From the IMG/VR virus record IMGVR_UViG_3300037882_002241, positions 1 through 64,000 of that record: 64,000 nt of DNA. One strand, 5' to 3'. The translations under genes were made by a program, and so were the position numbers. Numbering within the stretch: position 1 is the stretch's first letter; the number at the start of each line of letters is the position of its first letter. A model generated the notes under the pieces. It searched no databases. It saw only the letters and a program-made list of their open reading frames with translations, and had not been told where the DNA came from. Shown piece after piece: positions 3,508-26,053 of the stretch. The DNA comes from a virus.

Positions 3508-3535
3508 TTTGATTATCCTATAATGTCAATAATCA

Positions 3536-3775
3536 TTAACGGCTTTTTAATTGATTTGCAAGCGAAAATTCAACAATCATTGAAATTAATTGCACCGTTG
3601 TATCGGCATTTAGCATCGACCGCATATATTTTACACGGTTATTAACTGCCATTGTTGAAATTCCTAAAAGCAGGCTTATATCTTCAACCCTTTTGCCTTG
3701 ACGCAATAAGTTAACTATATCAAGGTTTATGCCTTTAATTTCAAATTGCTTTGTGACGCTTTTTTCAAAATTCAT
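3536..3775 (-). CDS. single-domain LuxR/GerE-type HTH protein
   Basis: 79 residues made almost wholly of a LuxR-type DNA-binding domain: IVNLLRQGKRVEDISLLLGI then STMAVNNRVKYMRSML match the GerE scaffold and recognition helices, followed by a fourth helix. No sensor domain is present. Probably a phage transcription regulator acting as a dimer. It follows the unknown 229-residue gene with almost no gap. Confidence 0.75.
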   Translation of the reverse strand: MNFEKSVTKQFEIKGINLDIVNLLRQGKRVEDISLLLGISTMAVNNRVKYMRSMLNADTTVQLISMIVEFSLANQLKSR

Positions 3776-3776
3776 G

Positions 3777-4466
3777 TCACACTCCGTATTCCGCGCTGTT
3801 CATTTCACCTATTGATTTGAATTTATGACCTCGCTCTTTTATTTCTTGATTGCGCCTAAAATAGTTCACAAGCCCCCCAGCTGTTGCTGCTATCATTAAT
3901 GCCCCGTTTTGTAATTCTGTTCTGTCTATATACGGATTGCGACCGCTACGCCCTATGTTTCTTATGATTTGCTCACAACCTTCGTCATACCAAAAACCCT
4001 CATATATACGCTTGAAAACGTGTGAATATGCCATTTCAGAATGGCTGAAAGGCTTACCAGTATCGGAATTTATAACATTGTTGTCGATATATTCATGAAT
4101 ATCAGTTAACTTGTGAATTGCCGCTTGTTTAGCTAACATTACGTTTTCTTGTGCGCCACGATTGCCACCGCCATCAACTTTAACGCTTGCATAATCCATG
4201 CCTTTACGCCCGTCTTTTTCTAATGGCGCTGATATTAATTCATATGCTTTTAGTGCATCATATTGCTCTTGTGTAAAGCTACCTTTGGAAAAAAACTTGT
4301 TTTTATTAACATCTAGGTAATCACTCACCGCCGCAAGTGGGTTAGTTACACCAACAATTTTACCAAATTCAGTCTTTACAACCATATGGCTCATTACATA
4401 ATCAGCTTGCGTTCTGATTTTAGCAACTGATATAGACTTAATAGGCTCAAATTTATGTTCAGGCAT
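3777..4466 (-). CDS. hypothetical protein, possibly regulatory
   Basis: 229 residues, soluble, mixed charge, no motif I recognise. AAAGAGATACT precedes the ATG. It sits immediately upstream of the LuxR-type HTH gene and may work with it, for instance in late-gene control; this is only a positional inference. Confidence 0.6.
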   Translation of the reverse strand: MPEHKFEPIKSISVAKIRTQADYVMSHMVVKTEFGKIVGVTNPLAAVSDYLDVNKNKFFSKGSFTQEQYDALKAYELISAPLEKDGRKGMDYASVKVDGGGNRGAQENVMLAKQAAIHKLTDIHEYIDNNVINSDTGKPFSHSEMAYSHVFKRIYEGFWYDEGCEQIIRNIGRSGRNPYIDRTELQNGALMIAATAGGLVNYFRRNQEIKERGHKFKSIGEMNSAEYGV

Positions 4467-5862: not shown

Positions 5863-6113
5863 TATGCTACTCCTAGTTCTGCGAGCAATTCATCGTCTTC
5901 TTTTGTAAATACAATTTTACCAGATGGTTTTAATTTGCGTTTAACTACATAGCCTGAATTTTGTAACTGTGATTTAACTGAATACAAATGATTTGCTAAA
6001 AATGAAGCGCAACCAAACTGCATAACCATTTCTACATACGCATTCATCCCATTTTCTGAAACAGGTTGAAATTTTACGAACAATCCATCTTTATAATACG
6101 TTAAATCAGTCAT
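5862..6113 (-). CDS. hypothetical protein
   Basis: 83 residues, ending in an acidic helix after a basic stretch (VVKRKLKPSGK). It overlaps the upstream repeat-protein gene by 4 nt (ATGA). No recognised domain. Confidence 0.55.
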   Translation of the reverse strand: MTDLTYYKDGLFVKFQPVSENGMNAYVEMVMQFGCASFLANHLYSVKSQLQNSGYVVKRKLKPSGKIVFTKEDDELLAELGVA

Positions 6114-6655
6114 TTTTGTAACTCCCTTAATTTTATTAAGGTATCAACAATTAAAATCGCCTCCCGATTGTTAGCCCAATGATTAATGGCTTCTTCGACT
6201 GTAAAGTTTCTACACTCTGCTAATATCCTGCCACAGGATGACATGAAAAAACAATGCCCACGAGTGTCAACTAAATAATTTATTACGCCACTAACCCGTG
6301 CACTGCCGCTAACCCGTGCAGTGCCGCTAACCCGTGCAGCACCGCTAACCCATGCAGTGCCGCTAACCCGTGCAGCACCGCTAACCCATGCAGTGCCGCT
6401 AACCCATGCAGTGCCGCTAACCCGTGCACCGTCGAAAACCTGTGCAGTGCCGCTAACCCGTGCAGCACCGCTAACCCATGCAGTGCCGCTAACCCGTGCA
6501 TCGTCGAAAACCCATGCATCGTCGAAATGTGATAAATTTATTTCACTCTGAACATACCCACCAACTTCACCTTTTTTTACGTCACCAAAATTAATGAGTG
6601 CCTTTACTCTAAAAAGCCCGTCAATGCCCGTTTTAATTAATTCATATTTTTTCAT
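6110..6655 (-). CDS. hexapeptide-repeat (left-handed beta-helix-like) protein
   Basis: 181 residues. The N-terminal part (MKKYELIKTG...VGGYV) is typical of a widespread phage family in which a short leader is followed by short repeats. Residues about 45-125 are repeats of the type ARVSGTAWVSGA, which should stack into a parallel beta-helix. A 55-residue tail follows. The repeats are nearly identical in DNA, which invites copy-number change. First gene behind the promoter at 6679-6706. Function unknown; YdcK-like proteins are related in style. Confidence 0.75.
   Translation of the reverse strand: MKKYELIKTGIDGLFRVKALINFGDVKKGEVGGYVQSEINLSHFDDAWVFDDARVSGTAWVSGAARVSGTAQVFDGARVSGTAWVSGTAWVSGAARVSGTAWVSGAARVSGTARVSGSARVSGVINYLVDTRGHCFFMSSCGRILAECRNFTVEEAINHWANNREAILIVDTLIKLRELQK
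6290..6525 (-). repeat. coding tandem repeats of the beta-helix gene
   Basis: Units near 15-18 nt such as GCCGCTAACCCGTGCA recur about a dozen times with small changes. They encode the xVSGxA repeats. Some flanking units (GTCGAAAACC) encode the divergent VFDGA type. Confidence 0.85.
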
Positions 6656-11765: not shown

Positions 11766-12899
11766 TTAGCTTGCATTAACAAACCTCTGTCTTACACCAT
11801 CTCCATGCTCTAACACGGTATGTCCTACCGCTAGTATATTCTTTGCAGCGTTCAAATCTCGGCTCATTGTATTGTCACATGATACGCACTCATAGAACCT
11901 TTTTGAAAGATTCTTCATCTGCTTATTTACTGCACCACAACATGAGCAAAGTTGAGTTGAAGGGAAAAACCTATCAATCTTAACCATTACTTTACCATAT
12001 CGTTTTGCTTTTTCTTCAATCATCGAGATTGTTGCACCTATTGCAGCATCTGATATTGAACGGGCTAAGTTGTGATTTTTAACCATGCCCCTTAAGTTTA
12101 AATCCTCAACAGCGATAACGTCAAATCTCTTGATTATATCAGTTGTGAATTTATGTTGAAAATCCTTGCGTCTATTAGATACATTTAGCTCTAATTTAGC
12201 TAGCTTTTTACGAGCTAACTCACGACGTTTTGAACCTTGTTTCTTCTTTGCTAACCTCTTAGCTAAAAGCTTTCTTCTCTTATGCACATCTCTTGAAAGT
12301 TTTTGAGATACTATTTCCTCACCGTTAGATAAGCAAGCGAATGACTTTATACCAAAATCTATACCTATGCTTTGACCAGTTTTATTGAATGTATTAACAT
12401 TCTTTTCGACTACAAAAGAAGCGAAATATTGCCCCGATGGATTACGTATAACCGTAACACTAGATGGTGCAGATGGCATCTTGCGGCTCATCTTAATTTT
12501 CACTAGCCCTATTTTAGCAATAGAGAGCCTATTTCCATCTGTGAATTTAAAAGCATTATTTGTGTATCTAGCAGACTGATGTCCTGTTTTTTTCTTAAAA
12601 TTAGGATACTTAGCACGTTTAGCAAAGAAGCTCTGAAAAGCAGTCTGCAAATCATCCAATGATTGCTGCAAAGCTACAGATGAAACTTCATTTAACCAAA
12701 CGTATTCATGCTCTTTTTTTAAGAGAGTTAATGCCGCACTCATAGTGTTAAAATTCATACGAACATTATTGTCTTTAAATGCAGCCGTTCTTTTTGCTAA
12801 AGCATTATTGTAAACTACTCGAACGCAACCGAATGTTTTAGCAAGGTGTTCTTGCTGCGCATCATCAGGGTATATTCTGTAGTTATATCTTAGCTTCAT
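11766..12899 (-). CDS. tnpB: TnpB RNA-guided nuclease (IS605 OrfB)
   Basis: 377 residues, intact. An N-terminal helix-turn-helix starts MKLRYNYRIYPDDAQQ. The RuvC-like triad is visible: Asp in IGIDFGIKS near 176, Glu in VEDLNLRG near 265, Asp in SRDLNAAKNI near 350. A CxxC...CxxC zinc finger (CSCCG ... CVSC) sits before the last Asp. TnpB cuts DNA guided by omega-RNA and helps keep the element. All key residues are present, so it may be active. Confidence 0.9.
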   Translation of the reverse strand: MKLRYNYRIYPDDAQQEHLAKTFGCVRVVYNNALAKRTAAFKDNNVRMNFNTMSAALTLLKKEHEYVWLNEVSSVALQQSLDDLQTAFQSFFAKRAKYPNFKKKTGHQSARYTNNAFKFTDGNRLSIAKIGLVKIKMSRKMPSAPSSVTVIRNPSGQYFASFVVEKNVNTFNKTGQSIGIDFGIKSFACLSNGEEIVSQKLSRDVHKRRKLLAKRLAKKKQGSKRRELARKKLAKLELNVSNRRKDFQHKFTTDIIKRFDVIAVEDLNLRGMVKNHNLARSISDAAIGATISMIEEKAKRYGKVMVKIDRFFPSTQLCSCCGAVNKQMKNLSKRFYECVSCDNTMSRDLNAAKNILAVGHTVLEHGDGVRQRFVNAS

Positions 12900-16585: not shown

Positions 16586-16783
16586 TTAACACGCATAATT
16601 AATTAAATAGTAAATTAACACAAAAAAAACGATTAAATATCCAATAGATAATGTGCAATACAACGCTGAAAATGAATCATGCATATCATTATATCTATCA
16701 AAGCCTAGCGCGATAAGCCTTAATCCAATACCAATAATAACTAACATATCAGTTACTAGCATTGTGTTTAAAAATAACGTCAT
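16586..16783 (-). CDS. small two-span membrane protein
   Basis: 65 residues with two hydrophobic helices (MLVTDMLVIIGIGLRLIALG and LSIGYLIVFFVLIYYLI). GGAG lies 7 nt before the ATG at 16783. It overlaps the end of the upstream repeat-protein gene. Function unknown. Confidence 0.6.
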   Translation of the reverse strand: MTLFLNTMLVTDMLVIIGIGLRLIALGFDRYNDMHDSFSALYCTLSIGYLIVFFVLIYYLINYAC

Positions 16784-17270
16784 TTTTTTCTCCAAATTTA
16801 ATTTTTATCATTTCAATCCACATCTTATATATTTTGCCATGAATGTTGTCACCGTGTGTGACACCAACTGATTTGGTGAACTCTTGTAAGCCCCCCCAAA
16901 AGCAACCTGACCTAATAAATATTCCATTTTCGGTGTGCCAAGCTTGCGACGTTGAATTTCTTGAACCAGCGTATCCTAATAAAAATGGTGAGCCATAAAA
17001 AACAATACCTTGAATTTTACACCGCTCACCAAAGACGCACCGCTCACCAAAGCTACACCCCTCACCAAAGACGCACCGCTCACCAAAGACGCACCGCTCA
17101 CCAAAGCTACACCCCTGACCAAAGTTGCACCGCTCACCAAAGACGCACCGCTCACCAAAGCTACACCGCCCACCAAAGCTTTTTATTTTTCTGTAATCAC
17201 CAGTAGGGCATATGCGCCGTCCGCCTATAATCTCGAAATCATCAAATTCGCACTGTTCATATTTTTTCAT
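16749..17270 (-). CDS. Cys-containing hexapeptide-repeat protein
   Basis: 173 residues. After 32 residues (MKKYEQCEFDDFEIIGG), about 11 repeats of the type CxFGER build a probable beta-helix (32-88). The C-terminal 85 residues (KIQGIVFYGSPFLLGYAGS, CFWGGLQEFTKSV) form a separate domain. The start MKKYE is shared with the repeat protein at 6655, so both belong to one family with different repeats. First gene behind the promoter at 17294-17321. Confidence 0.7.
   Translation of the reverse strand: MKKYEQCEFDDFEIIGGRRICPTGDYRKIKSFGGRCSFGERCVFGERCNFGQGCSFGERCVFGERCVFGEGCSFGERCVFGERCKIQGIVFYGSPFLLGYAGSRNSTSQAWHTENGIFIRSGCFWGGLQEFTKSVGVTHGDNIHGKIYKMWIEMIKIKFGEKNDVIFKHNASN
17020..17180 (-). repeat. 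coding tandem repeats
   Basis: Near-identical 18-nt units of the type CTCACCAAAGACGCACCG encode the CxFGER hexapeptides. They explain the apparent open frames on both strands here. Confidence 0.85.
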
Positions 17271-17773: not shown

Positions 17774-17802
17774 TTGACAGATTTAAAAAAATGCCGTAAA
17801 CA
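17774..17802 (+). promoter_or_regulatory. promoter of the 17893 gene
   Basis: TTGACA (17774-17779), 17-nt spacer, TAAACA (17797-17802); CATAAT (17801-17806) overlaps. It would start a leader of about 80 nt. Confidence 0.6.
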
Positions 17803-17831
17803 TAATTGAGCGTTTAACGCTTTCTGTTGTT

Positions 17832-17880
17832 GAGCCTCACGAAGCTAGTCAGTCAGTTTTATTCGTGAGGCTCTTCTTTT
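17832..17880 (+). terminator. terminator-like hairpin before the 17893 gene (leader D)
   Basis: A perfect 12-bp stem (17832-17843 with 17862-17873) is followed by TTCTTTTT, 12 nt before the ATG. The loop starts GCTAGTCAG (844-852 of this kilobase), complementary over 9 nt to 17533-17541 and over 8 nt to 17639-17646. It is therefore likely an attenuator rather than a final terminator. Confidence 0.65.
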
Positions 17881-17892
17881 TCAAGGCTAACC

Positions 17893-18129
17893 ATGTCAAA
17901 CATCAAAAACAAGATTCACCCACAAAGGCTTGATTTTCAAAGTAACTGGCTTGATTTAAGGTTTGGTGATAATGTTTTGTTTGTGCTTAAAAACACATAT
18001 GTTAATGGTGAAATCACTGAAAATAAATATGGCAAATTGCAGGTACACGTTGGCAACCAATTTTGGGCGTTGAGCTTACTTGAAAACTTTGGCTGCAAAT
18101 TTGTGCTGTTGCCGAAATTAAATAGTTGA
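17893..18129 (+). CDS. hypothetical protein
   Basis: 78 residues, beta-rich (FGDNVLFVLKNTYVNGEITE, LQVHVGNQFWALSL), perhaps a small barrel. AAGGCTAACC precedes the ATG. It lies between two structured leaders and opens the rightward early region. No family recognised. Confidence 0.6.
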   Translation: MSNIKNKIHPQRLDFQSNWLDLRFGDNVLFVLKNTYVNGEITENKYGKLQVHVGNQFWALSLLENFGCKFVLLPKLNS

Positions 18130-18154
18130 AAGTTTTTTAAAAATGCGATATGTT
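18126..18154 (+). promoter_or_regulatory. promoter of the antirepressor leader
   Basis: TTGAAA (18126-18131), 17-nt spacer, TATGTT (18149-18154). The predicted start near 18161 coincides with the first base of the structured leader A. Confidence 0.6.
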
Positions 18155-18160
18155 TTTCTT

Positions 18161-18250
18161 GCCTAGGATTAAAACATTTTGCAAAATTTTAGTCTTTAAG
18201 TGAGCAGGTTCCTAGGCAAAATGTGCCTGCTCTCTTAAGGACTTTTTTTT
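18161..18250 (+). ncRNA. pseudoknot-capable leader RNA A with terminator
   Basis: A 15-position stem (18194-18208 with 18226-18240, one mismatch) plus eight U residues ends 10 nt before the ATG. The 17-nt loop holds CCTAGGC (18211-18217), pairing with GCCTAGG at 18161-18167, and GCAAAATGT (18216-18224), pairing with ACATTTTGC at 18174-18182. Both pairings are perfect, cross each other and share two loop bases. Leader B at 24964 has the same layout with different sequence. Confidence 0.75.
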
Positions 18251-18260
18251 GGAAAAAACC

Positions 18261-19091
18261 ATGAACGAATTAATTGAAAATAACAAAACACACCCGAATG
18301 ATTTCAAAGTTACGTTTGATAAAATTATTGAAAAAATGTTTAATGGTAACCCGATTAGAACTGCTTTTATAGGTGGTGCTTATTGGTTTGTTGCGTTAGA
18401 TGTTTGTAAAATTTTAGAAATTATTAATGCGCGTCATGCCGTTTCAAGATTAGATGATGACGAAAAGGGGGTAGTTTTAAACTACACCCTTGGAGGCTCT
18501 CAAGATATGACAATTATTAATGAGAGTGGTCTTTATAATCTTGTGCTATCTTCAAGAAAAACTGTTGCTAAGGAATTTAAGCAATTTGTGACGAAAGAGC
18601 TTATCCCCGCTTTGCGAAAAGGTGAATTAGAAGCTAAACAACCCGTCCAACAATTTGAAATTCCACAAACATTAGGAGACGCACTCTTATTGGCTGGTAA
18701 ACTAGCAAAAGAGAATGAAGCGCAAGCCCTTATTATCAAAGAGCAAGCCCCAAAGGTCGAATATGCTAACGCTGTTTTAAACTGCAAGCAATCAATCCAG
18801 TTGGGTGCTTTTTGCAAGCAAGTTGGATTAGGCAGAAACAAGTTAATGCAATTAATGCGAGACGACAAAATTCTTATTGCTGGCGGAGTGCTTTACAATA
18901 CACCATATCAACAATTTATCGACGCTGGCTATTTTGAAGTCGAAAAATCAGTGTCTAGGAATATGCTACACCAAGGTTTAACAACATACATTACAGGCAA
19001 GGGTGAAATGTGGCTATGCAAGCGGTTAGGTTTAAAAAATAAAAATGACGCTATTGATGGTCAAGAACGTGAAATTTTAAAAATCGCATAA
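18261..19091 (+). CDS. BRO-N/KilAC-type phage antirepressor
   Basis: 276 residues. Residues about 8-112 are a BRO-N domain (AYWFVALDVCKILEI, FVTKELIPALRKG). The C-terminal 110 residues match the KilAC/ANT antirepressor domain (GAFCKQVGLGRNKLMQLMRD, YFEVEKS, TYITGKGEMWL). Such proteins counteract repressors or reprogramme transcription. A TTG at 18249 is in frame, but GGA followed by the ATG at 18261 is the natural start. Its first residues MNELI are shared with the product at 25067. Controlled by leader A. Confidence 0.85.
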   Translation: MNELIENNKTHPNDFKVTFDKIIEKMFNGNPIRTAFIGGAYWFVALDVCKILEIINARHAVSRLDDDEKGVVLNYTLGGSQDMTIINESGLYNLVLSSRKTVAKEFKQFVTKELIPALRKGELEAKQPVQQFEIPQTLGDALLLAGKLAKENEAQALIIKEQAPKVEYANAVLNCKQSIQLGAFCKQVGLGRNKLMQLMRDDKILIAGGVLYNTPYQQFIDAGYFEVEKSVSRNMLHQGLTTYITGKGEMWLCKRLGLKNKNDAIDGQEREILKIA

Positions 19092-19097
19092 TAGTTA

Positions 19098-19126
19098 TTG
19101 ACAGATTGTTATAATCCTGCTATTCA
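19098..19126 (+). promoter_or_regulatory. early promoter
   Basis: ATAGTTATTGACA with TTGACA at 19098-19103 and TATTCA at 19121-19126 (17-nt spacer). It would give a leader of about 170 nt (19130-19305) before the next gene, in which I see only short hairpins. Confidence 0.55.
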
Positions 19127-19305
19127 ACAATAGAGATTAACGAGTGCCTTTTTCTTGTGGTCTTGACTTGTTTAATTAAAGTAAACATGTGGAAAAACTC
19201 CTATAATTACACAAAACACACTCTCATGAAGTAAATTAGGCGCAAGAGAAGTGGGTTTTGTTTTAAACTTAAAATAGCAATAGAAGATTTAAGGGAGTTG
19301 ATAAA

Positions 19306-19512
19306 ATGTTAAACATACAAAACTTCTTATTTTTAACTGTTATTTTTGTTTTATTATTTATTGGTTTTTTAGGTTTTATATTAGAACCAACTGTTAATGA
19401 TGAAAACACCAAGCGTGATAAGTATAGACAGGAATTTAAAGAAGCTTGCTTAAAAGTTGGTGGTCATCCAGTTTTAGGCTATTACAATCAACATAGTGTG
19501 TGTATTAAGTAA
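19306..19512 (+). CDS. small membrane-anchored protein
   Basis: 68 residues: one N-terminal transmembrane helix (FLFLTVIFVLLFIGFLGFIL) and a polar tail with two cysteines. AAGGGAG lies 9 nt before the ATG. Could be an inner-membrane accessory such as a superinfection-exclusion protein, but nothing proves it. Confidence 0.6.
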   Translation: MLNIQNFLFLTVIFVLLFIGFLGFILEPTVNDENTKRDKYRQEFKEACLKVGGHPVLGYYNQHSVCIK

Positions 19513-19540
19513 GGATTGATGAAATGTTATATTCTTAATT

Positions 19541-19570
19541 TGTGACGTATTTTTCAGAATATGCGTCACA
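19541..19570. terminator. convergent terminator
   Basis: TGTGACG (19541-19547) pairs with CGTCACA (19564-19570), with further ATT/AAT pairing inside. It separates the rightward membrane-protein gene from the leftward RusA gene. Confidence 0.6.
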
Positions 19571-20021
19571 GCTTATTTAATAGCTTATTTTTCTTTTTAT
19601 CTTTTAATTCTGTAGTTATTAAATCAAAAACGAAAAAATCAGTTGTTACAATAACTTGAACGAATTGTTCATCACTTCTGCTAACGTAAAATTCACGCTG
19701 CAAGTTGTCATTTTTAATAATACACGCCGTTTGCATTAAATCAAATAACGGTTTTATTAAATTATCACCATCAGCTAGAACGTATAGTTTAGGCAATATA
19801 AAAACAGTATAAAACTCACTTGTAATAGCTATATTTTCGGGAGTGTAAACATTAATACGGTAATGGTTTTCTCTTATCCACGCACCATATTTACCAGTCT
19901 TGGCACGTCCTTTGAAAGGCACGTTATAAGTAGAAGAATTAACACTAGGAGGTTTTGTGCAAAAAAATGTTAAAGCTTTACCGTTGTAAATTTTAGTTAG
20001 CGATTTACTTAATGCTGTCAA
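19566..20021 (-). CDS. rusA: RusA-family Holliday junction resolvase
   Basis: About 151 residues. KPPSVNSSTYNVPFKG near the start and ADGDNLIKPLFDLMQ, then IIKNDNLQ in the middle follow the RusA pattern of conserved acidic residues (DxDN, D, xD). It would resolve four-way junctions in phage recombination. The frame opens upstream to an ATG at 20066, but that stretch lies inside the preceding small gene; a TTG at 20021 just after that gene's stop is the likelier start. Confidence 0.75.
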   Translation of the reverse strand: MTALSKSLTKIYNGKALTFFCTKPPSVNSSTYNVPFKGRAKTGKYGAWIRENHYRINVYTPENIAITSEFYTVFILPKLYVLADGDNLIKPLFDLMQTACIIKNDNLQREFYVSRSDEQFVQVIVTTDFFVFDLITTELKDKKKNKLLNKL

Positions 20022-20023
20022 AA

Positions 20024-20164
20024 TTACAATTCTTTTCCGACACAAAGAATGCCAACAGCTAAACAAAAACCAGAACTTCCTGAACCTAAGATACTAGGTA
20101 TTCCATTAAATTCAATAATAAAACCTAAAATTGACGATAATAAACACAAAATACCGATTAACAT
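20024..20164 (-). CDS. small membrane protein
   Basis: 46 residues, almost wholly hydrophobic (MLIGILCLLSSILGFII, then GFCLAVGILCV), ending GKEL. AGGAGTAATAAA precedes the ATG. Placed between the 20158 gene and rusA with coupled junctions. Function unknown. Confidence 0.65.
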   Translation of the reverse strand: MLIGILCLLSSILGFIIEFNGIPSILGSGSSGFCLAVGILCVGKEL

Positions 20165-20352
20165 TTTATTACTCCTGTAACTGGAATTTCAATAGCTAAT
20201 TCACCATCGCGGACTTGCTCTAGTGTTTTTAAAATTGCATTAAGTTTTTTGATAAACTCCAAATGTTCTTTACACATAAAGCTAAGTCTTGCAACTTGAT
20301 TTGCATCTTTAATTAATTCTTTGACAAGCTCTATTTGCTCGTTTATTGTCAT
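20158..20352 (-). CDS. small helical protein
   Basis: 64 residues, probably a coiled coil (IELVKELIKDANQVARL, FIKKLNAILKTLEQV). GGGAGAGCAAC precedes the ATG. Unknown function. Confidence 0.6.
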   Translation of the reverse strand: MTINEQIELVKELIKDANQVARLSFMCKEHLEFIKKLNAILKTLEQVRDGELAIEIPVTGVIKC

Positions 20353-20371
20353 TGTTGCTCTCCCATTTTTT

Positions 20372-20446
20372 TGGCATAGGTTAACAGATTTGAACTGTTA
20401 CTTTAGGTTTTGGAGACCCACGTGCTACCATTAACACCAAACCCAC
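20372..20446 (-). tRNA. tRNA-Trp (anticodon CCA)
   Basis: 75 nt. Acceptor GTGGGTT with AACCTAT (two G-U pairs), D-arm GTGT/GCAC, anticodon stem TGGGT/ACCTA around loop CTCCAAA, T-arm AACAG/CTGTT with TTCAAAT, discriminator G73 as needed for Trp, and an encoded CCA. It stands alone, 7 kb from the other tRNAs and on the opposite strand. Confidence 0.85.
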
Positions 20447-20671
20447 TAATTTAACCACGTGGCAAGCTTAACATTCATCTTGCATTTTCACACCCTTTGC
20501 TTTGATTTTGCCTGCAACGGTTACTTTTAAAGTGAGGTTTTGTTTAAACTACACGTGAATTACAATTTACTATGGCGTTAAGCGTCAACTCATAAACCAT
20601 AGTAAAGCCTTGTTAGTTAATCCAACAAGGCAAACTGATAGGGGAGTGAACCCCAAGCTCTATACGCAATA
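20447..20671 (-). other. intergenic segment with three hairpins
   Basis: Perfect hairpins lie at 20607-20631 (GCCTTGTT/AACAAGGC) and 20569-20603 (ACTATGG/CCATAGT), plus GGGG/CCCC near 20640-20653. They follow the Cro-like gene on the minus strand and may end its transcript or shape the tRNA-Trp precursor. No convincing gene is visible. Confidence 0.45.
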
Positions 20672-20902
20672 CTAGATAGAGATATTCTTTTTTACACTGC
20701 ACCAATAGTCATACTGGTCACGATAAGTAACAAGCCCGTTAGTTGCAAGTTCTATTTTTTCCATGTTATCATCATTAGGCATACGTATTTTTTTAGTATC
20801 TGTTGCACACCAACGCCAAATGCACGAAAAATCAACCCCAATATCTCTTGAGAGTGCGCTTTGGTTCGGTTTGTGTGTTTCAATATATTCTTTTAAATTC
20901 AT
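20672..20902 (-). CDS. Cro/YdaS-like repressor
   Basis: 76 residues with an HTH of the Cro type: LKEYIETHKPNQSALSRDIG then VDFSCIWRWC, followed by RMPNDDNMEKIELATNG. It faces the rightward operon at 21054 and is the likely early switch protein. The best -10 element ends only 7 nt before the ATG, so its mRNA may be leaderless. Confidence 0.75.
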   Translation of the reverse strand: MNLKEYIETHKPNQSALSRDIGVDFSCIWRWCATDTKKIRMPNDDNMEKIELATNGLVTYRDQYDYWCSVKKNISI

Positions 20903-20908
20903 GCTTAT

Positions 20909-20937
20909 GATATAGTGCGTATTATAACCATTGTCAA
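20909..20937 (-). promoter_or_regulatory. promoter of the Cro-like gene
   Basis: Minus strand TTGACA (20937-20932), 17-nt spacer, TATATC (20914-20909). The expected start of transcription is at or next to the ATG at 20902. Confidence 0.6.
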
Positions 20938-21001
20938 TAGATATTTATTGACTCAATGAAGTTTTTTTAAATTATTTTTTTTGTAAAACACAAAATAACT
21001 A

Positions 21002-21029
21002 TTGACAGATTGACAATTTAGTCTATATT
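21002..21029 (+). promoter_or_regulatory. rightward early promoter
   Basis: AATAACTATTGACA with TTGACA 21002-21007, 16-nt spacer, TATATT 21024-21029, then AACAACGGAGA before the gene at 21054. Operators for the Cro-like protein would be expected in 20903-21053. Confidence 0.75.
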
Positions 21030-21053
21030 AAATTTAACAACGGAGAGAATACA

Positions 21054-21395
21054 ATGAACGAGCAAGCTTTAATAGAAAAATGTCTAAAAAACGCAATTTC
21101 AAATATCACCTGTGATACAGGGCGTTATTACGACCCATCACTTAATCTTGCGACAAATGCAATGAGGCTGGTAAAAGACATTAAGCGGCTTTTTGAAAAC
21201 CAGCTACATTCACTTCTTTTTGCACAAAATGTTGTTGTCCCGAACAATTTTCAGCCTACTTTGTCACAACTTTTAAAGGCTGCATGGGCTGCAATTAAGA
21301 AAATTTCATCTTGGAAAATCAATCATAGTGAAAAACGTCAATCTTATGTAAATTGGTTGAATGAGCGAAATATTACAGCTAATGGAGGTTTATAA
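21054..21395 (+). CDS. hypothetical early protein
   Basis: 113 residues, helical, basic C-terminus. First gene of the rightward early operon. No recognised domain. Confidence 0.6.
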   Translation: MNEQALIEKCLKNAISNITCDTGRYYDPSLNLATNAMRLVKDIKRLFENQLHSLLFAQNVVVPNNFQPTLSQLLKAAWAAIKKISSWKINHSEKRQSYVNWLNERNITANGGL

Positions 21396-21568
21396 TGTTT
21401 TATAAAAATGAGCAAGAATTAAAAGCTGAAATTGAAAGGCTTCAAGGTTGCTATTACAGTGACTATGATGAGTGGCGTTATTGGCTGGATAATCAGATAA
21501 AAATGAAGATTATTATTCCTGAAAATGGCGGTTACAGATTTAACAATGATTTTGTATTAGGAGAATAA
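21395..21568 (+). CDS. small hypothetical protein
   Basis: 57 residues: a short coiled coil (NEQELKAEIERLQGCY) then DYDEWRYWLDNQIKM. Starts at a TAATG junction with AATGGAGG upstream, and ends 1 nt before the next ATG. Confidence 0.6.
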   Translation: MFYKNEQELKAEIERLQGCYYSDYDEWRYWLDNQIKMKIIIPENGGYRFNNDFVLGE

Positions 21569-21569
21569 A

Positions 21570-22190
21570 ATGACGAATGATAAAGTAACTAAAGAATCAC
21601 AAATTACGCTATTGGACGAAATTCGTGAGATAATACTTTCACAGCCAGGTTCATTTGATATGGAGCAATGGCATTCAGAATGTGGAACGTCACATTGTCT
21701 TGCTGGGTGGGTTCAAACTTTACGCGGCGGTTATGAAGCAGAATTATCTGGGGCAGCTCATTTGCCAGATTTTACTGATTTTTTCTATTTTACAACAGAT
21801 AGAGTTAGGGAGTGGCTCGATAAGCGAGCTTACGCCCTTGATGATAAATGTTTCGTAAATAGCCTGTTTGGATTTATGTCAAACAGGCTAAACACTTATT
21901 CCACTTTAGAAGAAGTGGAAAGATTAGACGGTGGTAATATTGATTGCTATAATTGTCATGATTGTCATGATTGCACTAATTGCCGTGATTGCACTAATTG
22001 CCGTGATTGCACTAATTGCCGTGATTGCACTAATTGCACTAATTGCCGTAATTGTCATGATTGCACTAATTGTCATGATTGCACTAATTGCCGTGATTGC
22101 ACTAATTGCCGTGATTGCCGTAATTGCACTAATTGCACTAATTGCTATGATTGTCATGATTGCTATGATTGTCATGATTGTACTAATTAA
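21570..22190 (+). CDS. Cys-repeat protein (NCxDC repeats)
   Basis: 206 residues. Residues 1-125 resemble a phage family of unknown function (MEQWHSECGTSHCLAGWVQT). The last 80 residues are almost only the pentapeptide N-C-x-D-C with x = H, R, T or Y. With about 34 Cys in a row of repeats, a stacked metal-binding or disulphide solenoid is conceivable. Third repeat protein of the window. Confidence 0.7.
   Translation: MTNDKVTKESQITLLDEIREIILSQPGSFDMEQWHSECGTSHCLAGWVQTLRGGYEAELSGAAHLPDFTDFFYFTTDRVREWLDKRAYALDDKCFVNSLFGFMSNRLNTYSTLEEVERLDGGNIDCYNCHDCHDCTNCRDCTNCRDCTNCRDCTNCTNCRNCHDCTNCHDCTNCRDCTNCRDCRNCTNCTNCYDCHDCYDCHDCTN
21945..22188 (+). repeat. coding tandem repeats
   Basis: Units such as GATTGCACTAATTGCC repeat with small changes over about 240 nt and encode the NCxDC pentapeptides. 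Prone to slippage. Confidence 0.85.
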
Positions 22191-22235
22191 AAAAACAAAA
22201 GATTTAATTTGAAGTTTAAGAGGTTGAAAACAAAA

Positions 22236-22721
22236 ATGAAAATGAACATAAATGAGGTTAGGCAACAAATAATTGCCATTAAAGCATTGGTGACAGATGG
22301 TGATGATGTTCTATTGCATGATATGATTGAAGGTGAGACAAGTTTAGAAGATTTATTATTATATCTTTTAAAGCAACTTTCAGAATATGAGGCTGCTATA
22401 ATTGGGCGAAAAGCTTTAATCAAAGATTGGCAAAATTTAAATGCAACTAAGGAATTACAGATTGAAAAAACACGTGAATTAGCATTGCAATTATTGCAAG
22501 ATAGCGGGTTGCCATCATACAGAACGCCACTAGGCAACATATCAATAGCAAAGGGGCGTGATGGTGTATTTATTGACGAAAACCTTCATTATGACGATAG
22601 ATTTTACAAAACAGTTAAAACTTTAGATAAAACTGCAATCAAAGAAGCCATTGCAAATGGTGAAACAATTCAAGGCGTGGTTAAAACCAACGCTAAGCCC
22701 CACATAATTATTAGAAAGTAA
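22236..22721 (+). CDS. Gp157-like (Siphovirus Gp157) family protein
   Basis: 161 residues. A long helical region (LLLYLLKQLSEYEAAIIGRK, KELQIEKTRELALQLLQDSG) then YRTPLGNISIAKGRD follow the Siphovirus Gp157 pattern. Such proteins accompany ERF/RecT recombinases in phages; the exact role is unclear. In-frame TTG and ATG codons lie upstream; the ATG at 22236 after AAGAGG is preferred. Confidence 0.7.
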   Translation: MKMNINEVRQQIIAIKALVTDGDDVLLHDMIEGETSLEDLLLYLLKQLSEYEAAIIGRKALIKDWQNLNATKELQIEKTRELALQLLQDSGLPSYRTPLGNISIAKGRDGVFIDENLHYDDRFYKTVKTLDKTAIKEAIANGETIQGVVKTNAKPHIIIRK

Positions 22722-22726
22722 ATAAA

Positions 22727-23482
22727 ATGGAAGATACAAACTCACAAGTTAATAAGATTTACCCTGCTTTTATTAAAGCACAGGCGGAATTTGAATCTGT
22801 TCAAAAAGATGGCACTGTAAAGGCTGAAAGTAAAACTGGTGCTATAACTCGCAATTATAGCTATGCGACAATATCATCTGTCATTAGCATGATTAAACCA
22901 GTTTTAGCTAAGTATAATTTGGCAGTCATTCAGTTAATTAAAAACTCTAATTTTGAAAAGCACATAACCATTGAAACAAGATTAATTCATGATAGTGGTC
23001 AAGAGATTGTTACTGAATATTCAATGCCTGTTAAAGAGGTGGAGAAAAAAAACTGGGTAAATGGTCAAAACGTAACGGAATATAGATATATTGACTCACA
23101 GGCTCTTGGTTCTGCTATTACATATGCGCGGCGTTACGCTTTAACGTCATTTTTTGGGTTATCAACAGAAGATGATGATGGGCAACTTGCTAGTAAGAAA
23201 GATGAACAAGTTAAAGATTTTAAGCAAGATGAAAAGCCACCTAAGTTTGTTGATAAACCAAAGCAAGAAGTGAAACCAGTTGAACCTGTACTACATGACG
23301 AACAATCAAAGCACTTCAACGGCATGGTGGAAGCCTTAAATTCTTGTAAAACATTGCAAGAATTAAATGACAAGCTCGCCAGTGATAAATTCACAATAGC
23401 ACATGAAAAGCTAACAAAACACGCGATTGGAAGCTTTCAGCTTAACATTGATGCACGCCGCAATCAATTAAAGGAGGTGTAA
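22727..23482 (+). CDS. erf: ERF-family single-strand annealing protein
   Basis: 251 residues. Residues 1-150 match the ERF superfamily (IYPAFIKAQAEFESVQKDG, YSYATISSVISMIKPVLAKY, GSAITYARRYALTSFFGL). The C-terminal part is a Lys/Glu/Pro-rich linker and a short helical end. It anneals complementary single strands in phage recombination, probably with the SSB at 26148 and RusA. Confidence 0.85.
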   Translation: MEDTNSQVNKIYPAFIKAQAEFESVQKDGTVKAESKTGAITRNYSYATISSVISMIKPVLAKYNLAVIQLIKNSNFEKHITIETRLIHDSGQEIVTEYSMPVKEVEKKNWVNGQNVTEYRYIDSQALGSAITYARRYALTSFFGLSTEDDDGQLASKKDEQVKDFKQDEKPPKFVDKPKQEVKPVEPVLHDEQSKHFNGMVEALNSCKTLQELNDKLASDKFTIAHEKLTKHAIGSFQLNIDARRNQLKEV

Positions 23483-23483
23483 G

Positions 23484-23990
23484 ATGATATTATCAGCACA
23501 ATCAATAATTAGAAGGCAAGGGCTATCAGTTTTTAATGGTGAATATATGATACGGCCATTTTATGAGACAAAGCAGTTGTTTGATGGCATGTCTTATGGG
23601 CTATCAAGTGCAGGCTATGACTTTAGACTGTCATTGAACGGTGTTAAAGGCACTGTAAATGATGAATTTATTTTAAAGCCTAAAGAAAACATTCTTGCTT
23701 CTCTCATGGAATATATAAACGTTCCTGATGATATTTTAATCACGTTTGAAAACAAATCAAGCTTGATTAGAAGGCTTATAACTGTTCACAACACAGTATT
23801 TGAACCAAATTGGCAAGGTTATGCAACAGTTGAAATATCAAATTTAAGCAATGAGCCATTCATTTTGAAACATGGTATGCCTATTGGTCAAGGATTATTT
23901 CATCGTCTAGACGAACCAACTGTAAACCCGTATAATGGAAAATATCAAAATCAACCAAATATACCAGTTAAATTTAAGTTAGAGGTGTAA
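23484..23990 (+). CDS. dCTP deaminase-like protein
   Basis: 168 residues of the dCTP deaminase/dUTPase superfamily: SSAGYDFRL, ENKSSLIRRLITVHN, TVEISN and HGMPIGQGLFHR. The Glu in TVEISN matches the catalytic Glu of dCTP deaminases, so deamination of dCTP to dUTP is likelier than dUTPase alone. Would feed thymidylate synthesis. Follows erf directly. Confidence 0.8.
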   Translation: MILSAQSIIRRQGLSVFNGEYMIRPFYETKQLFDGMSYGLSSAGYDFRLSLNGVKGTVNDEFILKPKENILASLMEYINVPDDILITFENKSSLIRRLITVHNTVFEPNWQGYATVEISNLSNEPFILKHGMPIGQGLFHRLDEPTVNPYNGKYQNQPNIPVKFKLEV

Positions 23991-23992
23991 TC

Positions 23993-24247
23993 ATGGAATG
24001 GAAACCAATAATAGAATTAAATGATGATTGTTGCACCATTGAAATAGGATGGGTTGATGATGATTGGGATAGGATTAACCCGTTTGAAACTAGCACTTTT
24101 TTAATTGACGGTGGATTAGCCATTGATAAATCTGAATTTAAACCAGAATATAATTTAAGTGATGCGTTAACAATAGAGCAACTGAAAAAAGAATATGAAG
24201 AACATTATTTCTTCATTCACCCCGAATTTAAAGGAAAAACACATTGA
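23993..24247 (+). CDS. small acidic hypothetical protein
   Basis: 84 residues, strongly acidic (DDCCTIEIGWVDDDWDR). Starts 3 nt after the deaminase stop with GAGGTG upstream. Might be a DNA mimic, but no family is recognised. Confidence 0.55.
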   Translation: MEWKPIIELNDDCCTIEIGWVDDDWDRINPFETSTFLIDGGLAIDKSEFKPEYNLSDALTIEQLKKEYEEHYFFIHPEFKGKTH

Positions 24248-24269
24248 CTTACTTTGACAGTGAAAAATA

Positions 24270-24749
24270 ATGTCTAATGACACAACTATAACCATGAAGC
24301 TAGTCAACGATGTCTTTGTATATGACAAAACAGACTGGCTTAATGAACGATTAATAAGTGAAATGAAGCAAGGTGTAACATACCACGCTTCGTTTGACAG
24401 ACCACGTTCAAAGAAGCACCATAGATGGTTTTTCGCATTAATGGGGTTAGTTCAAAAGGCATATCCTGATAAGTTTAGCAGTTTAGACGTTTTATTGTAT
24501 GCTTTAAAAGATGTAACTAACTTAACAGAATTAGCAATGAACCCTATAACAGGTAAAATGATGGCTAAAGTTGGTTCAATATCTTTTGAGAAAATGAACC
24601 AAGATGATTTTTTTGACTGGTCAGCAAGGGCAATATTGGCACTTAATGAATTTATAGGTGATGATGTTGTTACAATTTTTATGCCTGATAATGTTAAAGA
24701 AAAACCAAAGTTAATAACTGCAATGAATAAACACCGTGAGGAAAAATAA
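24270..24749 (+). CDS. DUF1367-like recombination-region protein
   Basis: 159 residues. RPRSKKHHRWFFALMGLVQKAYP, FSSLDVLLYALK, GSISFEKMNQDDFFDW and LNEFIG follow the pattern of DUF1367 proteins found in the nin regions of lambdoid phages. Function not established; linked to recombination by context here. Confidence 0.65.
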   Translation: MSNDTTITMKLVNDVFVYDKTDWLNERLISEMKQGVTYHASFDRPRSKKHHRWFFALMGLVQKAYPDKFSSLDVLLYALKDVTNLTELAMNPITGKMMAKVGSISFEKMNQDDFFDWSARAILALNEFIGDDVVTIFMPDNVKEKPKLITAMNKHREEK

Positions 24750-24932
24750 ATGCTAGACTCAAAAACACTAAGAGATTTAAGAATAAGACTAACTAATAAA
24801 GAATTCGTCGATTTAATTATTAATAAAAAATTACCTAACATATACGAATGCATATATGATTTAAACAAGAAAATTAATGAACTTGAAGCCTATATTTTTT
24901 TATTAGAAGATAAAATTAAAAATAAAGCTTGA
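24750..24932 (+). CDS. small helical protein
   Basis: 60 residues with a C-terminal coiled coil (INELEAYIFLLEDKIKNK). Starts on the base after the previous stop. The promoter of the next cassette overlaps its end. Confidence 0.55.
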   Translation: MLDSKTLRDLRIRLTNKEFVDLIINKKLPNIYECIYDLNKKINELEAYIFLLEDKIKNKA

Positions 24933-24957
24933 TTAATTGTTTTAAGTAAGCTATAAG
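24929..24957 (+). promoter_or_regulatory. promoter of leader B
   Basis: TTGATT (24929-24934), 17-nt spacer, TATAAG (24952-24957). The predicted start, near 24964, is the first base of the paired leader, as for leader A. Confidence 0.6.
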
Positions 24958-24963
24958 AAAATA

Positions 24964-25056
24964 GCAGTTGCCTTAAATATCTTTGCAAAATTTTCCCTTA
25001 GATGGATACAGGTGGCGACTGCAAAGATTGCCTGTATCTTTCTAAGGGTTTTTTTT
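24964..25056 (+). ncRNA. pseudoknot-capable leader RNA B with terminator
   Basis: An 18-position stem (24995-25012 with 25031-25048, one mismatch) is followed by eight U residues directly before the ribosome-binding site. The loop holds GGCGACTGC (25014-25022), pairing with GCAGTTGCC at 24964-24972 (one G-U), and TGCAAAGAT (25020-25028), pairing with ATCTTTGCA at 24979-24987. Same order, overlap and spacing as leader A, with a different sequence in both helices. Confidence 0.75.
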
Positions 25057-25066
25057 GGAAAAAACT

Positions 25067-26053
25067 ATGAATGAATTAATTAAAGTAGAAGAAACTATAA
25101 ACAATTCACCAATATCAAAATCATTGATTTTTAATCATTTATTAGGTGAAGGGGGGGCATTTTCTGACAATGATGTTAACTGGCATAGATTGGATGTTTT
25201 ATTAAGCGCCTTTTCTGTTGATTTTTTTAATATCTATGAATATCTCGAAAAAAGCCATCTTATAGAAAGATTTAAAAAAAATGTTATAAGCGCAAACTAT
25301 CTTGATGATAGTGGTATTATTTTTTATATAAATGAAAGTGGCATTAAATTAATTGAACCATTACTTTTAAGAAAAAAAGAATTTAGTAATTTTCTTGCAT
25401 TAATAAATTCACATAAATTTATATTAAATGACAATGTTTCTTTTAATGATGACTTGGGGTTCGTGTATGCTTATCATATTAATATCAATGGTGATGATTT
25501 TTATAAAATAGGCAAATCTAAAAGCAGCGTTGATTCACGTGGTAAGGTTATATCTAGCGGGTTGCCATTTAAGGGGCTAGAATTATTAAAATGCACAAAA
25601 GTAGCTAATTATAGTGCCGCTGAATTGCATTTACATAATAAATTCAAAGATTATAGAACGAATGGTGAGTGGTTTAAGTTAGATAAAGTAAATTCTGATT
25701 TATTAACATATCATATGAATAAATTATCTTTAATTGAAAGTAAAATAACAGTTGCACCACAAAGCATGAGTAGCAACTTTTATTTAGGGGATACAGTTGA
25801 AAACCTAAAAACAAATTATGAGTATAATCACTTAACAGATAAAATGTGTGAAGAATCACAGTGGTTCTTTGATGGATTAATGGAAGTCAGTGACGAAACA
25901 CAAATTTTTTTAACTGAAAAGAAAATAAATAGAAATGCACATTTTAAGAAAGATTCTAGTGATGAATCCATAAATAAAAGTGTAAGTGAAATAATAAATT
26001 ACAACCTCATGAATAAATTTATGGGCTGTCATTTAATTTTAGATGAATGGTAA
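25067..26053 (+). CDS. T5orf172/GIY-YIG-like domain protein
   Basis: 328 residues. The middle part (GFVYAYHINI, DDFYKIGKSKSSVDSRG, SAAELHLHNKF, TNGEWFKL) matches the T5orf172 (Mug113-like) fold related to GIY-YIG nucleases. The N-terminal 110 residues look like a winged-helix or other DNA-binding unit (WHRLDVLLSAFS). The first residues MNELI equal those of the antirepressor at 18261. A TTG at 25055 is in frame, but the ATG fits the GGA site. Nuclease or regulator; controlled by leader B. Confidence 0.7.
   Translation: MNELIKVEETINNSPISKSLIFNHLLGEGGAFSDNDVNWHRLDVLLSAFSVDFFNIYEYLEKSHLIERFKKNVISANYLDDSGIIFYINESGIKLIEPLLLRKKEFSNFLALINSHKFILNDNVSFNDDLGFVYAYHININGDDFYKIGKSKSSVDSRGKVISSGLPFKGLELLKCTKVANYSAAELHLHNKFKDYRTNGEWFKLDKVNSDLLTYHMNKLSLIESKITVAPQSMSSNFYLGDTVENLKTNYEYNHLTDKMCEESQWFFDGLMEVSDETQIFLTEKKINRNAHFKKDSSDESINKSVSEIINYNLMNKFMGCHLILDEW

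Follow-up and report, generated by a model that had tools for sequence, protein, structure and literature searches.

The C4 RNA is a structured RNA of phage antirepressor operons that carries two short complementary segments. It is listed as the C4 antisense RNA, RF01695, of P1/P7 immI (PMC2864571). The nearest described case to the elements analyzed here is IsrK of the Salmonella prophage Gifsy-1 (isrK-orf45-anrP), a terminated leader of 77 nucleotides (nt) that precedes an antirepressor, has short and readthrough isoforms, and acts both in cis and in trans (PMC4825925). In the P4 CI RNA/seqA-seqC system, premature termination in a phage leader is controlled through short RNA pairings at two sites (PMC4825925). 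All three are RNA switches of phage regulatory operons, and two of them lie upstream of an antirepressor. Here, we describe two leaders, A (18159-18250) and B (24963-25056), on the + strand of a 64-kb stretch of viral DNA (the window, positions 1 to 64,000 of the 67,802-base record IMGVR_UViG_3300037882_002241). Each has a 5' tail with two segments, X' and Y', complementary to two segments, X and Y, in the loop of a terminator hairpin. Judged from their sequences, A and B are paralogs whose structure is under selection. Our preferred reading, to which we give about an even chance, is that they are two gene-specific transcription attenuators in which X'-X pairing would go with termination and Y'-Y pairing would oppose it.

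Both leaders were read directly from the sequence, folded, and then dissected with a purpose-written scanner, and the elements that an initial annotation of this DNA had described were found in their places. The order is common to both: predicted promoter, X', spacer, Y', linker, hairpin, 7-8 U, GGAAAAAAC, and ATG. In leader A, X' (UUGCCUAGGA, 18159-18168) is complementary to UCCUAGGCAA at 18210-18219 (-16.8 kcal/mol), and Y' (ACAUUUUGC, 18174-18182) to 18216-18224, with 9 base pairs (bp) and -9.7 kcal/mol. In leader B, X' (GCAGUUGCC, 24964-24972) has its partner at 25014-25022 (9 bp, one of them G-U, -16.8 kcal/mol), and Y' (AUCUUUGCA, 24979-24987) at 25020-25028 (9 bp, -10.1 kcal/mol). The spacer between X' and Y' is UUAAA or UUAAAU, and the linker that follows, AAAAUUUU at 18183-18190 in A and AAAUUUU at 24988-24994 in B, is common to the two. 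The terminator hairpin occupies 18191-18243 in A, with a stem of 18 bp closed at the top by a U.G pair, and 24995-25048 in B; the stem measures 18-20 bp across the two leaders, and its top is CAGGU/GCCUG in both. X and then Y tile almost exactly the whole loop, overlapping by 4 nt in A (18210-18224, 15 nt) and by 3 nt in B (25014-25029, 16 nt). The U-tract adjoins a GGA Shine-Dalgarno (SD)-like motif and the ATG in both leaders (A: 7 U after the stem, 18244-18263, ATG at 18261; B: 8 U, 25049-25069, ATG at 25067), and folding placed the SD and ATG outside the predicted helices. The lengths first proposed for B, for both Y'-Y helices, and the position of the U-tract beside the ribosome-binding site stood. 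In A, however, the X'-X helix has 8 bp for an RNA that begins at 18161 and 10 bp for one that begins at 18159 or earlier, instead of 7; the X/Y overlap is 4 nt instead of two or three; and the U-tract after the stem is 7 nt instead of 8.

The double complementarity was far beyond what shuffled sequences gave. When the 31-nt tail was shuffled and the loop kept fixed, the ordered X/Y score was reached by 1 in 20,000 shuffles for A and by none in 20,000 for B, which puts the chance of this order at about 5e-5 or less per copy. The two copies also differ from each other in the manner expected of conserved pairing, as the initial annotation had proposed: 25 of 37 compared pairs differ, and 23 of these 25 are still paired in both leaders, 21 by a two-sided change. 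Pairing was kept with both sides altered in 7 of 9 X'-X pairs, 5 of 9 Y'-Y pairs, and 9 of 19 terminator pairs, the last with two further one-sided changes. At a pairing chance of 0.375, the binomial P for 23 of 25 kept pairs is about 2e-8, a value that serves as a guide only because one template-switch event could alter several pairs together, and two sequences are too few for R-scape statistics. Hybrid helices made of one strand from each leader would retain only 2 of 9 X'-X, 4-5 of 9 Y'-Y, and 10-12 of 19 terminator pairs. Only 27 of 74 paired positions are identical between A and B, and in the unpaired parts the 5-nt spacer and 7-nt linker compared are identical and the U-tract-GGAAAAAAC segment differs by one U. 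The shuffles, the covariation, and a terminator set beside the ribosome-binding site thus uphold the claim of a selected RNA with the same layout occurring twice.

An intrinsic terminator sits between the predicted promoter and the gene in both leaders, an arrangement expected of an attenuator. The promoter predicted for A comprises TTGAAA (18126-18131), 17 nt, and TATGTT (18149-18154), spanning 18126-18154; it matched a consensus scan at 9 of 12 positions, a score that alone is no better than chance, and its region aligns with that of B. The B promoter, TTGATT (24929-24934), 17 nt, and TATAAG (24952-24957), spanning 24929-24957, came from sequence reading and this alignment and is absent from the list of the consensus promoter scan. 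Downstream of A, the gene at 18261-19091 (+ strand) codes for an antirepressor with Bro-N and KilAC (ANT) domains (Pfam; PHROG anti-repressor Ant), and downstream of B, the gene at 25067-26053 (+ strand) codes for a protein with a T5orf172/MUG113 (GIY-YIG-like) domain (Pfam; homing-endonuclease-type matches in PHROG). The first coding bases of these two genes are nearly identical, and so the promoter-leader-start cassette, now ahead of two unrelated genes, seems to have arisen by duplication. Two further regions near leader A were recorded. One, at 17800-17892, holds a third leader-like terminator (GAGCCTCACGAA/TTCGTGAGGCTC, z -5.1) with a long loop and a U-tract directly before the SD and ATG of an open reading frame (ORF) at 17893-18129; X' and Y' were not convincing there. 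The region 19098-19305, upstream of the ORF at 19306, has promoter-like motifs and a hairpin (19211-19261) followed by TTTT and is possibly a fourth terminator leader.

Leader A, with its predicted terminator upstream of an antirepressor, has the IsrK/SeqA-type gene order, and it would resemble IsrK as a predicted phage leader of roughly 77-90 nt with an intrinsic terminator and alternative pairings (PMC4825925). In contrast, IsrK acts on translation and its partner is a stretch of about 30 nt in orf45, downstream of it, whereas A and B pair a 5' tail with the terminator loop; isrK had no Rfam match in the window or the leaders. The P4 system would be alike in principle, with RNA pairing controlling premature termination in a phage leader, but its CI RNA is antisense and processed on its own, and no separate antisense segment was found for A or B. 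The targets in A and B lie in the terminator loop, unlike those of C4, which lie over the downstream ribosome-binding site. Two operon targets of the C4 type, one including the ribosome-binding site, were not found, the only notable + strand complements of each loop being X' and Y' of the same leader, and RF01695 gave no match at the gathering score over the window nor up to an E-value of 10 on the leaders. We regard the A and B leaders as a variant of RNA-controlled phage leader attenuators and as members of none of IsrK, CI, and C4. The original statement that no family with this layout is known holds for the layout, with no Rfam match, but relatives in kind do exist in these three systems. 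Type III toxin-antitoxin loci (ToxI/CptI) likewise consist of a promoter, a pseudoknot-capable RNA, a terminator, and then a gene. This class was rejected: direct reading, with no tandem-repeat program, gave one unit per leader, and no ToxN/AbiQ-type toxin lies downstream, where Pfam found Bro-N plus ANT and MUG113/T5orf172.

A probable distant member of the leader type was found on an unrelated viral contig, L191. The pattern CAGGTN{10,24}GCCTGN{8,20}TTTTTTNGGA retrieved 25 viral stretches, among them L191 3733-3838, with X' GUAGGAA (3739-3745), a UAAA-containing spacer, Y' UGAUUGAG (3753-3760), and a hairpin of 11+5 bp with the U.G-closed CAGGU/GCCUG top, followed by a U run, GGA, and ATG. 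In the loop, AUUCCUACAUUAUUCAAUCA, X lies one base from the start and Y exactly at the end. The order, stem top, and spacer are like those of A and B, and the helices differ. The search pattern itself required the stem top, U-tract, and GGA; it did not require a long stem, an ATG, a UAAA spacer, or this placement of X and Y. The tail-shuffle p was 0.00245, and because up to 25 stretches had been examined, we grade this member as probable and not proven. In 1.8 Mb, 135 candidates with a terminator hairpin followed by SD and ATG were scored for X and Y placed at opposite ends of the loop; a score of at least 34 was reached by A, B, and L191 alone, the next candidate having 28, and shuffles reached 34 in about 0.4% per candidate. 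The ORF downstream, of 75 amino acids, had no Pfam or PHROG match. The expectation in the initial annotation that homologues should keep both pairings is weakly answered by this single probable member, which keeps both.

Other searches for homologues were negative. Rfam, at the gathering score over the window and up to an E-value of 10 on both leaders, gave chance matches only; a DNA similarity search with the leaders and window positions 1-50000 against 50,697 phage records found no homologue; and no closely related phage emerged from protein searches with the antirepressor, T5orf172, ERF, and terminase. In viral contigs, two patterns on the shared linker and U-tract gave nothing, and a looser pattern gave 34 stretches, all without the layout. 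One exact leader pattern had 0 matches in genome contigs, and none of 80 antirepressor loci in genome contigs had such a leader, nor did antirepressor loci of Campylobacter, Arsenophonus, Microcystis, Enterobacter, and ICP1. The stem-top pattern gave three matches in 385 alphaproteobacterial genomes, all without the layout. The covariance model proposed earlier was built from A and B (R1) and searched in about 770 genomes (385 alphaproteobacterial, 369 gammaproteobacterial, and 20 of two alphaproteobacterial orders); its one weak match, in L175, lies within a coding region, lacks X and Y, and was rejected. R1 scored L191 at 7.4 bits, which is not convincing, because the L191 helices differ; the two-sequence model is thus ill-suited to such searches, and the negative results argue only weakly for absence. 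Rarity is not established by searches that used exact patterns or a model insensitive to L191. In a MAFFT alignment of A, B, and L191, the helices were out of register. A separate observation concerned L087 (Campylobacter phage DA10, about 3512-4035) and L088 (2123-2635). In both phages, similar non-coding DNA lies in front of a Bro-N/KilAC antirepressor and contains a strong AATAAGCACACT hairpin, and the hairpin loop, TTGCTAG, has its complement, CTAGCAA, a short way downstream; this region is possibly another antirepressor leader RNA.

From the layout, the covariation, the adjacency of the terminator, and the energies, we infer how transcription, termination, switching, and a trigger would fit together. 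A promoter just upstream would give an RNA of about 90 nt, usually ending at the hairpin beside the SD, so that the antirepressor or T5orf172 gene would be off by default. X' would pair with X first, while the loop is being made; in prefix folding, X'-X was the minimum-energy structure once X was made (-17.0 for A, -18.6 for B, and -10.7 for L191), and the terminator (-28 for A, -30 for B) won after most of the 3' arm had emerged. In the L191 prefix fold, GCCU beside X' pairs additionally with AGGU of the stem. The X'-X helix and the terminator may coexist, stacked coaxially in an H-type pseudoknot: in A and B, X' is separated from the stem by 22 nt, the two helices by 0-1 nt, and 5-8 nt cross X'-X, which makes such a fold possible in cis. 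Y' could pair with Y, partly overlapping X, but probably not in cis alongside the full terminator, since only 7-8 nt connect Y' to the base of the stem and about 27 bp would have to be spanned, and having X, Y, and the full hairpin all paired at once is unlikely. These lengths and energies suggest a switch in which X'-X accompanies and favors termination and Y'-Y opposes it, favoring delay or readthrough. Candidate triggers would be a protein, the arrival of a ribosome, pausing of RNA polymerase, or an RNA acting in trans, possibly the terminated leader itself. The divergence of the helices would let each leader recognize itself best; the computed energies were -17.4 for tail A on loop A and -6.5 on loop B, and -17.8 for tail B on loop B and -9.7 on loop A.

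Several points weigh against the attenuator reading. The 5' ends of both leaders are predictions, and in neither leader is a terminator arm the main partner of X' or Y', which sets both segments apart from a classical antiterminator. The terminator is much stronger than Y'-Y, and any effect of the latter would therefore need to be kinetic; that Y'-Y excludes the full hairpin is argued from lengths and not from a computed three-dimensional model. The L191 pairings (7 and 8 bp) are just modestly above chance, this member came from a pattern chosen for the stem top, U-tract, and GGA, and by computed energy its tail has no preference for its own loop.

The terminated leader of about 90 nt might instead be a trans-acting small RNA, with the X'Y' tail binding the XY loop of other copies, and it would then exert a self-dosage or immunity-like control of the antirepressor, in kind like IsrK, CI RNA, and C4. 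We consider this rather unlikely, even though the minimum-energy fold of the terminated RNA leaves the greater part of the tail, and of the loop complementary to it, unpaired, the two copies are largely orthogonal, with the A and B tails preferring their own loops, and IsrK acts in trans from a similar position, upstream of anrP (PMC4825925). The cis pairings are identical and at a much higher local concentration, and the phage has no notable second complementary site, the best others being 10-11 nt, about what chance gives. The near absence of common sequence in the putative pseudoknot helices of A and B agrees better with RNA-RNA specificity than with the view that the loop-tail pseudoknot is a site for a protein (the antirepressor, the T5orf172 protein, or a put/Q-like antitermination factor) governing readthrough; although the identical linker and near-identical U-tract and SD could form a shared recognition surface, the genes downstream are unrelated, and we think this quite improbable.

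A purely post-transcriptional role, such as 5' end protection or ribosome access in the readthrough mRNA, would make the hairpin an ordinary terminator of upstream genes, which do lie on the same strand, and would suit a hairpin and U-tract that abut the SD. It does not account for the crossing order that X'Y' and XY keep in both leaders, the SD and ATG are outside the predicted helices, and we give it a low probability. Finally, X'/X and Y'/Y are also inverted repeats, TTTGCAAA is a DNA palindrome, and the whole unit, from the promoter to the first codons, is duplicated before unrelated genes, as might be seen if these were operators or a recombination or cassette-insertion site that merely resembled RNA. 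Yet the pairing is conserved and the repeat sequence is not, the orientation, U-tract, and SD position suit RNA, and TTTGCAAA occurs at three further places, all inside predicted genes, making a DNA-level explanation very improbable. An integron-like DNA site was rejected on content.

Other features of the window were also recorded. The phage SSB (26151-26552) is nearest to alphaproteobacterial SSBs (68% identity at best; 165 bits vs 137 in gammaproteobacteria), a sequence similarity that hints at an alphaproteobacterial host. A TnpB-type transposase gene lies at 11766-12899 (PHROG transposase, E-value 1e-117), with at most about 46% identity to plasmid-borne relatives. The genes at 21570-22190, 16749-17270, and 6110-6655 contain strongly periodic repeats (NCRDCTNC, FGERCV, and VSGTAR types), and their DNA is open in several frames.

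More broadly, we tentatively put forward, as a somewhat less than even prospect, a leader family defined by double tail-loop pairing, diverging fast for self-specificity, in which a promoter-leader cassette placed before unrelated genes would work as a self-recognizing attenuator or a self-counting small RNA. If the attenuator switch works as proposed, it would put a phage antirepressor under compact control by RNA alone, a lever on the developmental decision. All its information would be held in 90 nt, and its specificity would be re-codable by paired changes and thus testable by simple compensatory mutagenesis. Such leaders might then provide a set of orthogonal transcription switches, and the natural divergence of A and B would offer a case in which to study the evolution of RNA-RNA specificity.

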